Source: a virus
Reading direction: 5' to 3' (one strand)
DNA length: 25,396 nucleotides
Virus record (IMG/VR): IMGVR_UViG_3300017728_000098
Coordinates: 1 to 25,396 of that record
In this document: in pieces, positions 4,393 to 25,396 of the stretch
Layout of the letters: the number at the start of each line of letters is the position of its first letter
Numbering within the stretch: the stretch's first letter is position 1
Notes under the pieces: generated by a model
What the model saw: only the letters and a program-made list of their open reading frames with translations
What the model was told of the DNA's origin: nothing
Database searches by the model: none
Translations under genes and position numbers: made by a program

Positions 4393-5334
4393 ATGTCATC
4401 AATCAAGCTTTCAGGAGATTCTGTTCGTTCATATTTAAGAGACATTGGTAGAATTCCACTCTTGGAGCATGAAGAAGAGATTCTTCTTGGACGACAGGTC
4501 CAACGGTTAATGGAGATCAAAGAAATTGAAGACGAAATGGAAGTTAAGAGCCAAGATGATTTGGCTGGGATTCTTGGTATCTCTACTCTTGACTTGAAGC
4601 GTCAGTTAAGAGCAGGAACTAAAGCTAAAGACAAGATGGTCACAGCAAACTTGCGTTTGGTTGTGAGTGTTGCCAAGAAATATACTAAACGCAATATGGA
4701 GTTGTTAGATATCATTCAAGAGGGAACAATTGGTTTAGTACGTGGTGTTGAAAAGTTTGACCCTAGCCGTGGTTATAAGTTTAGTACCTATGCTTATTGG
4801 TGGATCCGTCAAGGCATCACGCGGGCCATTGCGGAGAAATCGCGGGCAATACGCCTACCAATTCACGTTACAGAAAACCTCAACAAGCTTAAGAAAGCTC
4901 AACGTGAGCTAAGTCAGATCAATGGGGAAATGCCTACAGTATTTCAACTGGCTGATTATCTAGATTCTTCTGTAGATGAAATCAAAGATCTAATGTGTAA
5001 GGCACGTCAACCTACGTCACTTGAGATAAAGATAGGAGAGAACAGGGATACTGCTTTGATCGACCTGCTTGAGGATGAGACACAGCTTCCCGAAATGTTA
5101 TTAGATCGACAAGCTGTTAAAGAAAATATCCGCGACATCATTGATGAGTTGCCTGAGATGCAATCAGCTGTTATTAGAATGCGTTACGGGATTGGCGAGG
5201 AAGTACTTGAGCCAATGTCCATGACTGCTATCGGTCAAGTCCTTAACATGAGTAGAGACCGTGTACGGACTCTAGAGAATAAAGCGCTGCGTTATATCCG
5301 CGAATGCCCTGATAGTCTGGTGGAGTATCTTTAA
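4393..5334 (+). CDS. RNA polymerase sigma factor, cyanobacterial RpoD-like (group 2) type
   Basis: 313 aa. Region 1.2 is at about residues 9-42 (SVRSYLRDIGRIPLLEHEEE). Region 2, at about 80-155, has the core-binding and -10-recognition hallmarks NLRLVVSVAKKY, IQEGTIGLVRGVEKFDP and FSTYAYWWIRQGITRAI. Region 3 follows, and a region 4 helix-turn-helix at about 245-306 includes MRYGIGEE and SRDRVRTLENKALRYIRE. Length and order match cyanobacterial group 2 sigma factors, not the short T4 gp55 type. It would direct RNA polymerase to specific promoters. Finding it among capsid genes suggests capture from a host and use as a late-gene specificity factor. All regions look intact. Confidence 0.95.
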   Translation: MSSIKLSGDSVRSYLRDIGRIPLLEHEEEILLGRQVQRLMEIKEIEDEMEVKSQDDLAGILGISTLDLKRQLRAGTKAKDKMVTANLRLVVSVAKKYTKRNMELLDIIQEGTIGLVRGVEKFDPSRGYKFSTYAYWWIRQGITRAIAEKSRAIRLPIHVTENLNKLKKAQRELSQINGEMPTVFQLADYLDSSVDEIKDLMCKARQPTSLEIKIGENRDTALIDLLEDETQLPEMLLDRQAVKENIRDIIDELPEMQSAVIRMRYGIGEEVLEPMSMTAIGQVLNMSRDRVRTLENKALRYIRECPDSLVEYL

Positions 5335-18969: not shown

Positions 18970-19152
18970 ATGCCTTGTAAAAAATCAGAACTAGCCAGTG
19001 CCATTAATAGCTTTGCTGCAGCAAGAACAACCGGCGACGGTAATCTTCAGAAGATGGCAGCTCATGTTCTTGAGCAGCTGATTGATACGCTTCAGTTTTC
19101 TAATGAAGATGCAACAGAGGTTAGTGAGACAGAAGTTGTCGAAGGTGACTAA
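18970..19152 (+). CDS. Hypothetical small acidic-tailed protein (60 aa)
   Basis: 60 aa. The N-terminus has MPCKKSELASAINSFAAAR, then a short loop (TGDGN), a second amphipathic helix (about 26-42) and a Glu/Asp/Thr/Val tail. The two-helix plan with an acidic tail resembles small conserved proteins I recall from marine cyanophages, function unknown. The stop codon overlaps by two bases the stop of the convergent lysozyme frame (19149-19152), with no terminator between them. Confidence 0.7.
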   Translation: MPCKKSELASAINSFAAARTTGDGNLQKMAAHVLEQLIDTLQFSNEDATEVSETEVVEGD

Positions 19153-19610
19153 TTAGCAGATAGCTTAATTTCAGCGGCTCTCCTTCGGATTAATCCGGGG
19201 AGAGGCCCGTTCGGCCCATTCACCCATTTAGGGAATTCCTGTTGAAAGCACAGTGCTTTGTTCTCGCCGTCATTTATGCGTCGAGTGAAAGTGCTGTTTT
19301 CTAGTGCGCTACTACCTACGTTAAATGCAAAGCTGACAATTGCATCAAACTCATGTTGCGTAAGGACAGGCAGAATAATTTTGACAACCTGCTCTTCGAA
19401 CCACATAAGGTCTTTACGTAATAGCTCCTCCGCATCATCTTTGGTGATGACTTGACCCTCAAACACATGCTGAGTGTGGCCATATCCAATCGAGAGTATC
19501 GAGCTAGCGCAATAGTACGCTTCAAGCTCTAAGCCCTCAAAGGACTTAATAAGGTCAATTCCTGCTTGTGATGTGCGGGAAGGCTCAGAAACATGAGCTC
19601 CCGCCTTTAC
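19149..19610 (-). CDS. GH24 lysozyme (endolysin) domain in the -1 frame of the peptidase gene
   Basis: This frame encodes a complete T4/lambdoid-type GH24 muramidase that cuts the glycan strand of peptidoglycan. From the slip point it has 153 residues. LIKSFEG carries the catalytic Glu (261 of the fused product), then E-x8-C-x5-S (Cys270, Ser276) and IGYGHT; FDAIVSFAFNVG and GLIRRRAAE complete the family pattern. The usual third residue is Thr; here it is Ser. Upstream the frame runs only to a TGA at 19626-19628 and has no ATG, GTG or TTG before the Glu. A GTG at 19466 would drop the active site. Expression therefore most likely needs a -1 frameshift from the peptidase at 19610-19616. An A-run indel is the alternative. 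Confidence 0.88.
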   Translation of the reverse strand, partial: VKAGAHVSEPSRTSQAGIDLIKSFEGLELEAYYCASSILSIGYGHTQHVFEGQVITKDDAEELLRKDLMWFEEQVVKIILPVLTQHEFDAIVSFAFNVGSSALENSTFTRRINDGENKALCFQQEFPKWVNGPNGPLPGLIRRRAAEIKLSAN

Positions 19611-19616
19611 TTTTTT
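19575..19616 (-). promoter_or_regulatory. Programmed -1 frameshift site: slippery heptamer plus hairpin
   Basis: Reading the minus strand: A AAA AAG (19616-19610) is in the zero frame of the peptidase (gcA AAA AAG) and is followed at once by TAA. After a 5-nt spacer a stem forms: GCGGGAGCTCA (19604-19594) pairs with TGAGC (19587-19583) and TCCCGC (19580-19575), with a 2-nt bulge CT and a 6-nt loop, 11 bp in all. Slipping one base back leads exactly into the lysozyme frame. Heptamer, spacer length, hairpin and adjacent stop all match known bacterial -1 frameshift cassettes. Confidence 0.82.
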
Positions 19617-20317
19617 GCGCTCGGATCACTTACATCCATATACCAACCGGTGCCTTCTCCTTCAACAGTCCAACGTGGGTTAAAGTTTTTGTAGCTGTAC
19701 TTTATACCTGCACCATCTAAATTAGCTGTGTATCCTCCACTGCGAAGTGAGGCTTCTCCATTTGGATCATTTACAATCCATGTTTCATTCTCATCGTCGT
19801 ATCCAATAATTACTGAATAGTGGCCTCCACCTGAAGGCGAACTGACTGGTCCTTCAAACAACCAGCCCACTGCTACAGGTCTTCCTGAATCAATAGCATC
19901 TTTCAATGTTTGAGTTGTACCATCAAATTTAAACTCTGCGTCAAGACCAATTGACTTCAAAGTTTTAACTTGTGCTTGTGCATCTGTTGTATCACCATAT
20001 TGCTTACGGATTGCGTTGTAATCGTCATCGTTATCAATCTTTCCGTAGTACATGGCGACCATGGCCATGCTGCTTGAGAAGCATTCTCTAAATCCCGTTC
20101 CAGAAGAATTATCGTTTTGACTTTGAAATGGCACACTTAATATGGTGCTGCTTGTAACCTCAAGCTTGTCACGGTAAGTCTTAACCCAAGCATGTTCATT
20201 ATCTTTCAATATATCCCTCATTTGCCCATACAGTATCCGAATACCTTCCTTCTGTTGAGCTTCTGAGTTGTAATACTTGAAAAAGTTTTCAAACTCTTTA
20301 AACGATAGATTAGCCAT
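19607..20317 (-). CDS. C39-like papain-fold cysteine peptidase, first half of a two-domain endolysin
   Basis: 236 aa in the zero frame. Residues 1-55 are a charged helical lead. Residues 60-200 match the Peptidase_C39_2 fold: VPFQSQ, catalytic Cys79 in FRECFSSSMAMVAMYYG, His166 in GGGHYSVIIGYD, and Asp184 in WIVNDPNGE. There is no signal peptide. In phage lysins such domains cut peptide stems or cross-bridges of peptidoglycan. The frame ends SAKK-stop exactly on the slippery site, so termination gives a 236-aa peptidase and frameshifting gives a 389-aa peptidase-lysozyme. The minus-strand TAGAAT at 20344-20339 lies 21 nt before the ATG. A holin gene was not found nearby. Confidence 0.85.
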   Translation of the reverse strand: MANLSFKEFENFFKYYNSEAQQKEGIRILYGQMRDILKDNEHAWVKTYRDKLEVTSSTILSVPFQSQNDNSSGTGFRECFSSSMAMVAMYYGKIDNDDDYNAIRKQYGDTTDAQAQVKTLKSIGLDAEFKFDGTTQTLKDAIDSGRPVAVGWLFEGPVSSPSGGGHYSVIIGYDDENETWIVNDPNGEASLRSGGYTANLDGAGIKYSYKNFNPRWTVEGEGTGWYMDVSDPSAKK

Positions 20318-23834: not shown

Positions 23835-25396
23835 ATGCCACGTCAAGTACATCCGGTGGAGGAAATAGCTCCCAAGTGGTCTCAGCTTATGGCTCCTGCA
23901 AAAGGACAAATTTATAAAGTCGATCTACCTACCCGTCACGGCAAGTCACGCTCTTTGGCGTTAGAGATTGAAAGCAACTCAAGAAGCTTCCGTCTCCGAG
24001 CAAGAGATCACTCACGAGCACGACCAGTAGTTGCTCGTAGTCTTGATCTTCAATGCCCGATAGAGATTACAAGCAAAGAAGATGCACTAAAATACTTGCA
24101 AAAATTTCCAGAGAAGTTTTTGCTCTTCCAAGGGGTTTTGGAAGAAATGCAGAATGGCTACTGGATGGGAGAACTTAACGTTAGACATGAGAAGCGTAAG
24201 CACATTAATCGCAATTATCCTCACGGAACTTTAGGACATTGCTTGCGTTGGTATATGTCAGAGGAGACAGGATCTGATAATCAAAGAGATAAATATGGAG
24301 CAGACGCTTACACGTTGCTAAGAATGGAAAGTAAGAATGGAGAATTCTTTGGCCATATCAATGCAGAAGATCTAGATGAAGACATCGCTGACCAGATGCA
24401 CTTTGAATGGATAAAGGCAGGCCGTGCTTATACAACCTTAAGAGGAGCATTCGCTCTTCTATCAGCCGCTCTATCAAGAGGTGCCAAGTTTCCTAAGTCA
24501 ACTGGTGTCAGGCGAGGGCAGTACTGGGGCGCTGTTGACAGCGAAGGCCGAGGCAACCCTATTAACAATGAACGTAAGCGCGTTGATTCGATAATTGCTG
24601 ATAATCGTTTGAAAGACGAGAACTCACGCCCTCAGCCATTTACACAAGAAGAATGCACAGCGCTAACCAAAGCATTCTTACGTCATGAGCACTTGAAGCC
24701 GTACTTCCCGTTATTTGCGTTGTTGCTATCTACAGGCAGTCGCCCAAACGAAGTACTGGCGTTGAGGTGGAGCCACGTTATGGGGCTGTGGAAAGGGCAT
24801 CAAATTGGCACTCATGTACCTGCTGCACAGAAGTTTGTTCTAGATGGTCAGCCTGTATTTTTCGAGTTTGGAGTTGATAGAAGGAATAGATTACATATTG
24901 AACCTGAACAGCGTTTCAAATGCGTCAAGAATGGATGTGAGCATCAGCCTTTGCTGAATTCCTATGTGCCTGAGTTTGAAGACCTGTTCGCCAAAGCAAT
25001 AAAGGCAGCATTACCACCAGTTCTGGAATGCATGACAAATAGAGACTGGCGTAAAAACTTAGTATTTCAGGGACCAAAGGCAAAAGATGACTTTAGGCTT
25101 CCGTTTGATTGGCATAACTTCAGAAGGTACTTTATGCAGGCATGTGCTTATTCAGGTGTTCGTTACCGCAGGCCCTATAACCTTCGGCACACCTATGTCT
25201 CATTAATGGTTCATCATGGTCAGTACAGCTGCAAGCAGGTAGCTACTTGGATTGGCGATACAGAAAGCACTACTAGAAGCAAGTACTTAGGTGTAGTCAA
25301 TTTTCCTCTTATGGATAAGGTAGAAGGCAAGCCCGACCTGAGCACCATGATTAATTCCATGAGTGTTGCTGAAAAGGCTCAGTTGATGGCCCAGCT
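23835..25396 (+). CDS. Tyrosine recombinase/integrase, 3' end outside window
   Basis: Open from ATG 23835 to the window edge, 520 residues visible. Residues 1-120 are a basic N-terminal arm-binding-like region; about 120-260 form the core-binding helices. The catalytic domain has Arg303 in STGSRPNEVLALRW, Arg451-His452 in YNLRHTYVSLM, Trp472 in the usual His/Trp position, and nucleophile Tyr484 in SKYLGVV. The first position of the HxxR box is Tyr instead of His. About 35 residues follow the Tyr before the edge. It catalyses site-specific integration and excision; the neighbouring tRNA-Ala is the obvious target. It lies on the 5' side of the tRNA, which is unusual. No TANAAT box precedes it. 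Confidence 0.92.
   Translation, partial: MPRQVHPVEEIAPKWSQLMAPAKGQIYKVDLPTRHGKSRSLALEIESNSRSFRLRARDHSRARPVVARSLDLQCPIEITSKEDALKYLQKFPEKFLLFQGVLEEMQNGYWMGELNVRHEKRKHINRNYPHGTLGHCLRWYMSEETGSDNQRDKYGADAYTLLRMESKNGEFFGHINAEDLDEDIADQMHFEWIKAGRAYTTLRGAFALLSAALSRGAKFPKSTGVRRGQYWGAVDSEGRGNPINNERKRVDSIIADNRLKDENSRPQPFTQEECTALTKAFLRHEHLKPYFPLFALLLSTGSRPNEVLALRWSHVMGLWKGHQIGTHVPAAQKFVLDGQPVFFEFGVDRRNRLHIEPEQRFKCVKNGCEHQPLLNSYVPEFEDLFAKAIKAALPPVLECMTNRDWRKNLVFQGPKAKDDFRLPFDWHNFRRYFMQACAYSGVRYRRPYNLRHTYVSLMVHHGQYSCKQVATWIGDTESTTRSKYLGVVNFPLMDKVEGKPDLSTMINSMSVAEKAQLMAQ

Follow-up and report, generated by a model that had tools for sequence, protein, structure and literature searches.

A conserved slippery heptamer and downstream stem support programmed −1 ribosomal frameshifting in a peptidase-lysozyme endolysin locus of a probable cyanophage and its relatives

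How can a complete lysozyme be translated when its reading frame has no start codon and opens only at the very end of another gene? This question is raised by a minus-strand locus in a virus record of 25,396 bp (IMG/VR record IMGVR_UViG_3300017728_000098), the whole of which was analysed and is called the window here. The major head protein encoded in the window belongs to PHROG 1357 and shares 65.9% identity with a protein of the Synechococcus phage S-EIVl, which is the sole phage record matching it at E-values up to 1e-10. An RNA polymerase sigma factor is encoded among the structural genes (4393–5334), and an integrase lies at the window end (23835–25394). A cyanobacterial host is probable, inferred because the head protein resembles that of S-EIVl and the sigma factor and integrase are also present. 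This S-EIVl-like phage may be temperate.

A sequence-only reading of the locus had described a C39-like peptidase and a complete GH24 lysozyme in adjacent minus-strand frames, to be joined by a −1 slip, and this description was borne out by profile matches, coordinates and folding. The 0-frame ORF (19607–20317, minus strand, as are all features below) encodes 236 residues plus the stop, matches the C39-like cysteine peptidase profile PF13529 (E = 7.6e-16) and ends with GCA AAA AAG TAA. The slippery heptamer A AAA AAG (19610–19616) is in phase and directly 5' of the TAA stop (19607–19609). A 5-nt spacer overlapping the stop (19605–19609) separates it from a probable stimulatory stem-loop (19575–19604) with an 11-bp stem, a 2-nt bulge and a 6-nt loop, which was assigned from folding and from conservation in the clade. 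The −1 frame (19149–19610) encodes 153 lysozyme residues after the slip, followed by a stop, and its GH24 domain is complete, covering positions 1–125 of 125 of PF00959 (E = 1.5e-37). As the reading had also claimed, no ATG, GTG or TTG is found in this frame before the codon (19536–19538) of the putative catalytic Glu in the motif SFEG. Upstream of the heptamer, a TGA (19626–19628) bounds the region in which a slip could occur. Ahead of the 0-frame stop the −1 frame is thus open over just 16 nt, and therefore the slip must be confined to the heptamer or its immediate vicinity. The computed products are the 236-residue peptidase after normal termination and an uninterrupted peptidase-lysozyme of 389 residues (236 + 153) after a −1 slip.

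We take the Glu of SFEG to be the GH24 catalytic residue, and the catalytic triad motif to be E-8aa-D/C-5aa-T. At these positions the window has E...C...S and its relatives L002, L097, L098 and L266 have E...C...T, so that the window differs at the third position. The peptidase sequence had no match in the PDB at E-values up to 0.01. Its AlphaFold model has a mean pLDDT of 88.7, and the best Foldseek matches of the model in the PDB are C39-type peptidase domains with modest TM-scores, such as 6mpz (E = 1.2e-6, TM-score 0.49 by query length). The model also resembles a pseudomurein endoisopeptidase with a weaker E-value, a modeled likeness that would suit a cross-link-cutting partner of a muramidase. 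Cys79, His166 and Asp184 are invariant in 22 sequences, and putative catalytic roles were assigned to them by analogy. Peptidoglycan is inferred to be the substrate because the peptidase is linked to a lysozyme and matches PHROG 10051 ("endolysin"); there are no activity data.

Close relatives retain the whole arrangement. The peptidases of L002, L097, L098 and L266, the last of which is a contig binned in a metagenome-assembled genome, are 87%, 68%, 57% and 69% identical to that of the window, and in all four loci A AAA AAG still precedes the stop, the lysozyme is in the −1 frame and a stem is present. In L098 a different stem occupies the same place, and the lysozyme is cut by the contig end after 67 residues. 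The heptamer is also present in L001, a near-identical stretch of a 67-kb contig. The sequence-only reading had proposed to ask whether heptamer, frame and hairpin are kept in related phages; they are, both in this near clade and in a distant clade with 35% peptidase identity that includes the cultured phage S-PM2. Both frames of the window are under purifying selection, with dN/dS values against L002 of 0.096 for the peptidase and 0.095 for the −1 frame lysozyme.

The hairpin of the window is, by itself, only moderately beyond chance. Its folding energy is −17.8 kcal/mol (z = −2.76), three of 200 shuffled sequences are equally stable, z is −1.94 in a 55-nt frame, and an Rfam search of 19400–19800 gave no match at E-values up to 1. 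Across the relatives, the stem is far beyond chance, as described below. The window, L002, L097 and L266 share the 11-bp stem with standard pairs in 93.2% of the pair cells and a variable loop. No covariation was found within this clade, where a covariation test is not possible because the stem pairs are too conserved.

Relatives were gathered by scans of viral contigs, genome contigs and phage records, and the best 80 were kept per scan: 80 of 424 for the S-PM2 peptidase, and 80 of 283, of at least 578 and of at least 442 for other scans. Two small scans gave 2 and 25. Because only the best 80 were kept, the sample is biased to relatives of the queries, and the queries S-PM2, ACG-2014f and S-CAM7 were picked once the pattern was already known. 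Loci were counted as distinct junctions when the 120 nt surrounding their slip sites shared less than 95% identity. L003, L182 and L224 (copies of the window's stretch or duplicate retrievals) and L262 and L263 (further S-CAM7 isolates) were omitted from the junction count. In total, at least 133 overlapping peptidase/lysozyme splits were obtained, representing at least 71 distinct junctions. The figure of 133 refers to loci and not to contigs, because some contigs were returned by two scans under two ids. In all 133 of 133, the lysozyme is in the −1 frame.

Among the relatives listed, an in-phase slippery heptamer is present at 65 of the 71 distinct junctions: A AAA AAG at 63, A AAA AAA at one and T TTT TTT at one (S-CAM7), with G- and C-type heptamers sought as well. 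The six junctions without a heptamer all have an ATG or GTG overlapping the stop. Thus 58 of the 71 junctions listed have a heptamer alone, seven have a heptamer and an overlapping start codon, six have a start codon only, and none has neither (Fisher p = 1.2e-5 on the 71 junctions). Of 65 split loci, 64 have an in-phase heptamer within the last 11 peptidase codons; in the same test it was found in none of 98 loci without an overlapping lysozyme, none of 26 lysozyme-peptidase fusions and none of three peptidase-lysozyme fusions. The 98 include L178 and L179, both with a separate lysozyme gene, and "no lysozyme" here means no match to a lysozyme profile built in this work, so phages with other lysozymes are included. 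Elsewhere in the two ORFs of the 48 representatives (18,524 codons), no in-phase A AAA AAG was found, and there are 26 other slippery heptamers (T TTT TTC, 18; A AAA AAA, 4; T TTT TTT, 4). Only A-type heptamers were considered in the survey of overlaps and starts, while A6A/G or T6T/C was used for the 48 representatives and the in-frame fusions. Five loci (L285, L288, L291, L308 and L321) have a peptidase and a lysozyme with an ATGA overlap and no heptamer. Their lysozyme frames carry an N-terminal extension (E-I-L-D-E-F-A-R) that may resemble the peptidase N-terminal region. In S-CREM2 (L005, 2498–4374), the peptidase is followed by two consecutive annotated lysozyme genes.

The folding signal of the 48 representatives peaks in the 50-nt window starting 3 nt past the heptamer (mean z = −3.6). 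Mean z is −2.1, −1.1 and −1.2 for the overlapping or neighbouring windows at −10, −30 and +20, and the other fourteen positions range from −0.88 to +0.22. Among the 58 distinct junctions without an overlapping start in the relatives listed, the stem has a median z of −3.34, and z is below −2 at 50 of them and not at the other eight; the upstream and downstream controls from the same junctions reach this value in 6 of 58 and 11 of 58. When folding was begun 4 nt past the heptamer, a first helix of at least 6 bp was located at 4–8 nt in 57 of 65 heptamer junctions. Stimulatory RNA structures of −1 frameshift sites are generally located about 5–9 nt downstream. The stem sequences vary between lineages and the location remains the same. 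In a clade of 17 sequences sharing one 14-bp stem, four pairs have changed on both sides and 98.7% of the cells pair, and none of 500 shuffles reaches either value; the count of further pair types was equalled by 44 of 500 shuffles. The downstream stem is a probable stimulator of slipping, for which there are no stimulation data.

One alternative is coupled re-initiation: having terminated the peptidase, the ribosome would begin the lysozyme anew from a codon, standard or not, that lies close to the stop or beyond it. An ATG, GTG or TTG overlaps the stop at 13 of the 71 distinct junctions among the relatives listed, where coupling is likely for that part of the family, and 19 of 49 loci counted (the 48 representatives and L084) have some other such codon between the heptamer and the Glu. 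Initiation of the lysozyme is therefore open to some relatives. However, the other 58 junctions listed have no start codon overlapping the stop, 23 of the 49 loci, including the window, have no ATG, GTG or TTG at all between the heptamer and the Glu, and in 12 of the 19 the sole such codon is a TTG located 15 or 30 nt before the Glu. Moreover, re-initiation predicts neither a stem nor a phased heptamer, and junctions with a start codon overlapping the stop are the very ones that mostly lack a stem: z is below −2 at one of seven junctions with both a heptamer and an overlapping start (median −0.16), and at none of the six with a start only (−1.68 to 1.52). The sequence-only reading had stated that relatives whose lysozyme has its own start codon would refute frameshifting. 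Such relatives do exist, as these 13 junctions, but with a stem at z below −2 in only 1 of 13 the pattern fits frameshifting rather than opposing it. We regard re-initiation as a very unlikely explanation of the locus in the window.

An equally improbable alternative is transcriptional slippage, in which the polymerase adds a base within the A run and some mRNAs encode the fusion directly. The homopolymeric site, the T8 run of S-CAM7 and the existence of loci with A7 are compatible with it. Efficient transcriptional slippage usually requires longer runs, and the run is A6 only in 44 of the 48 representatives; its codon phase is constant, and the stem stands at the ribosome-like spacing of 4–8 nt noted above. 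Finally, a sequencing error or decayed gene, with one missing base splitting an ordinary fusion, has some precedent in the two A7 fusion types described below, one of which has an A6 relative, but was set aside as scarcely credible because many different metagenomes have yielded contigs with A6, the S-PM2 records also have it and are 100% identical over the junction, dN/dS of the lysozyme frame is 0.094–0.18 for 11 of the 12 pairs examined (the remaining one was saturated), and an error would bring neither the stem nor the pattern of heptamers and start codons.

In-frame fusions also occur. Among the relatives listed, 17 distinct peptidase-lysozyme fusions were found, 12 without a heptamer, three of the ACG-2014f type and two with A7. 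ACG-2014f has an annotated ORF of 405 residues, with the peptidase followed by the lysozyme. Fusions of this type keep an in-phase A AAA AAG, the 5-nt spacer and the stem, and the heptamer and stem are constant where the upstream linkers differ. A −1 slip there reaches a stop after one residue; therefore, the short form would come from slipping, and the two outcomes are swapped. The A7 loci with one continuous frame, which the sequence-only reading had named as a refutation, were found in other phages (seven loci on five contigs among the relatives listed) as two junction types, L074 and L096. Both keep the stem (z = −3.97 and −5.24), so that their pattern fits frameshifting, and a slip would stop after 11 residues. 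Our reading is that these variants restored the frame, given that the S-PM2 records and contigs from many metagenomes have A6; genuine polymorphism was not distinguished from base-calling error. The junctions of L340 (A6, split) and L096 (A7, fused) are related, a possible natural length switch. The A7 continuous frames and the 12 of 17 fusions lacking a heptamer indicate that not every phage needs two products.

Two cultured phages carry the split arrangement. The S-PM2 peptidase is 35% identical to that of the window and ends with GAT GCA AAA AAG TAA, and the lysozyme follows in the −1 frame. The locus is identical over 1401 nt in AJ630128, NC_006820 and LN828717. These records annotate only a "putative lysin" of 72 residues that starts past the Glu. 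S-PM2 encodes its own tRNA-Lys with the anticodon TTT (L006, 5607–5657), located about 2.4 kb past the slip site, and its heptamer comprises two lysine codons. S-CAM7 has T TTT TTT in phase, a lysozyme in the −1 frame without a start codon, and a stem of −16.7 kcal/mol for 60 nt; the T8 run is present in three isolates. Both S-PM2 and S-CAM7 have lysozymes annotated as fragments starting past the Glu; recoding, if it occurs, would account for this and hence for the truncated enzyme in their records. S-CRM01 (L264, 1324–2633) was excluded as a split endolysin; the break is inside the lysozyme near its C-terminus, the second frame continues into another domain, and no sign of a C39-like peptidase was seen in the stretch read. 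Its broken GH24 frame may reflect an indel, an error or another recoding site.

The peptidase tree separates the window clade (three rows, 100/99) from the S-PM2 group. The starred branches of this tree force at least three changes of the frameshift label, with a bootstrap that has not settled, and the label also includes L084, which has no heptamer. A quicker lysozyme tree without L098 likewise placed the window and S-PM2 apart on a starred branch, and the two lysozymes are 30% identical. The arrangement may have arisen repeatedly, or once long ago with many subsequent losses; either history fits these trees. Since the lineages differ in both domains, wholesale transfer of the cassette is less likely.

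Taken together, selected −1 programmed ribosomal frameshifting that yields a peptidase and a peptidase-lysozyme fusion is, in our judgment, the strongly favored explanation of this locus, although no frameshift product, reporter or mass-spectrometry data are available. The alignments of divergent relatives demonstrate the retention of heptamer, phase, frame and downstream stem, and the substitution pattern of the −1 lysozyme is that of an evolving protein. Ribosomal slippage as the event itself, the activity of both products in lysis and the importance of their ratio are inferred. In the proposed mechanism, one endolysin gene would be read in two ways. Part of the ribosomes would terminate at the TAA and release the 236-residue C39-like peptidase. 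Others would be held by the hairpin while their P and A sites are occupied by the two lysine codons, slip by −1 on A AAA AAG and complete the 389-residue peptidase-lysozyme. The two products would cut the peptide bonds and the glycan of peptidoglycan. The fixed ratio of two lysis proteins suggested by the sequence-only reading remains an inference without efficiency or protein data. A broader proposal is that a recoding switch of cyanophages sets the proportion of peptidase alone to peptidase-muramidase, and that different domain lineages acquired it on two or more occasions; the switch would be able to change its heptamer (from A AAA AAG to T TTT TTT), to be lost when a start codon appears, and to be reversed (in ACG-2014f, fusion by default and the short form by slipping), which would point to selection for both forms. 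We consider this proposal evenly balanced between acceptance and rejection.

The combination of A AAA AAG and a stem just beyond it is a classic bacterial −1 site, as in dnaX. In E. coli dnaX (tau/gamma), as in the window, this heptamer is followed within a few nucleotides by a stem and gives products of two lengths; an upstream Shine-Dalgarno-like stimulator is also known for dnaX. The ACG-2014f type has the polarity of dnaX, in which the slip leads to an early stop. In the split endolysin loci, by contrast, slipping yields the longer of the two products, which thereby gains a second catalytic domain. The tail assembly chaperone, for example G/GT of lambda, resembles the endolysin as a conserved phage frameshift that gives a short and a C-terminally extended protein. 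However, the chaperones are structural, the proteins here are lysis enzymes, and homology is not expected. PHROG 3617 matches the window peptidase (E = 2.6e-28, 4–229) and then the lysozyme (E = 5.5e-4, 235–402) in the same order, but it is a profile of one-frame proteins, while the parts are in different frames in the window.

In the portion of the PRFect paper available (PMC10885494), the tail assembly chaperone is the main phage case of frameshifting, and lysins are listed among genes reported with a frameshift, with a lactococcal paper among the references. As far as this source indicates, the lactococcal lysin is spread over two overlapping genes, like that of the window. Two endolysins of different length are produced from the single lysA gene of mycobacteriophage Ms6, and the authors suggested that the longer one may need ribosomes to shift frame at the GTGA where gp1 meets lysA (PMC3111421, available in part). 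The second Ms6 endolysin is embedded in frame, and the suggested site is a GTGA between genes, apparently without a slippery heptamer and stem in the part available. In the open-licence literature, judged mostly by listings and the beginnings of abstracts, we found no description of a cyanophage endolysin encoded through a frameshift. The design of the site is well known, and its use in a two-enzyme endolysin of cyanophages is apparently unreported.

The at least 65 distinct junctions with a heptamer are mostly from uncultured viruses, and they also include S-PM2 of Synechococcus WH7803, in which the prediction is directly testable. The absence of the stem at stops overlapped by a start codon is a natural experiment on the requirements of a frameshift site. 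If frameshifting is confirmed, the two-enzyme endolysin would be a new gene class among the conserved phage frameshifts.
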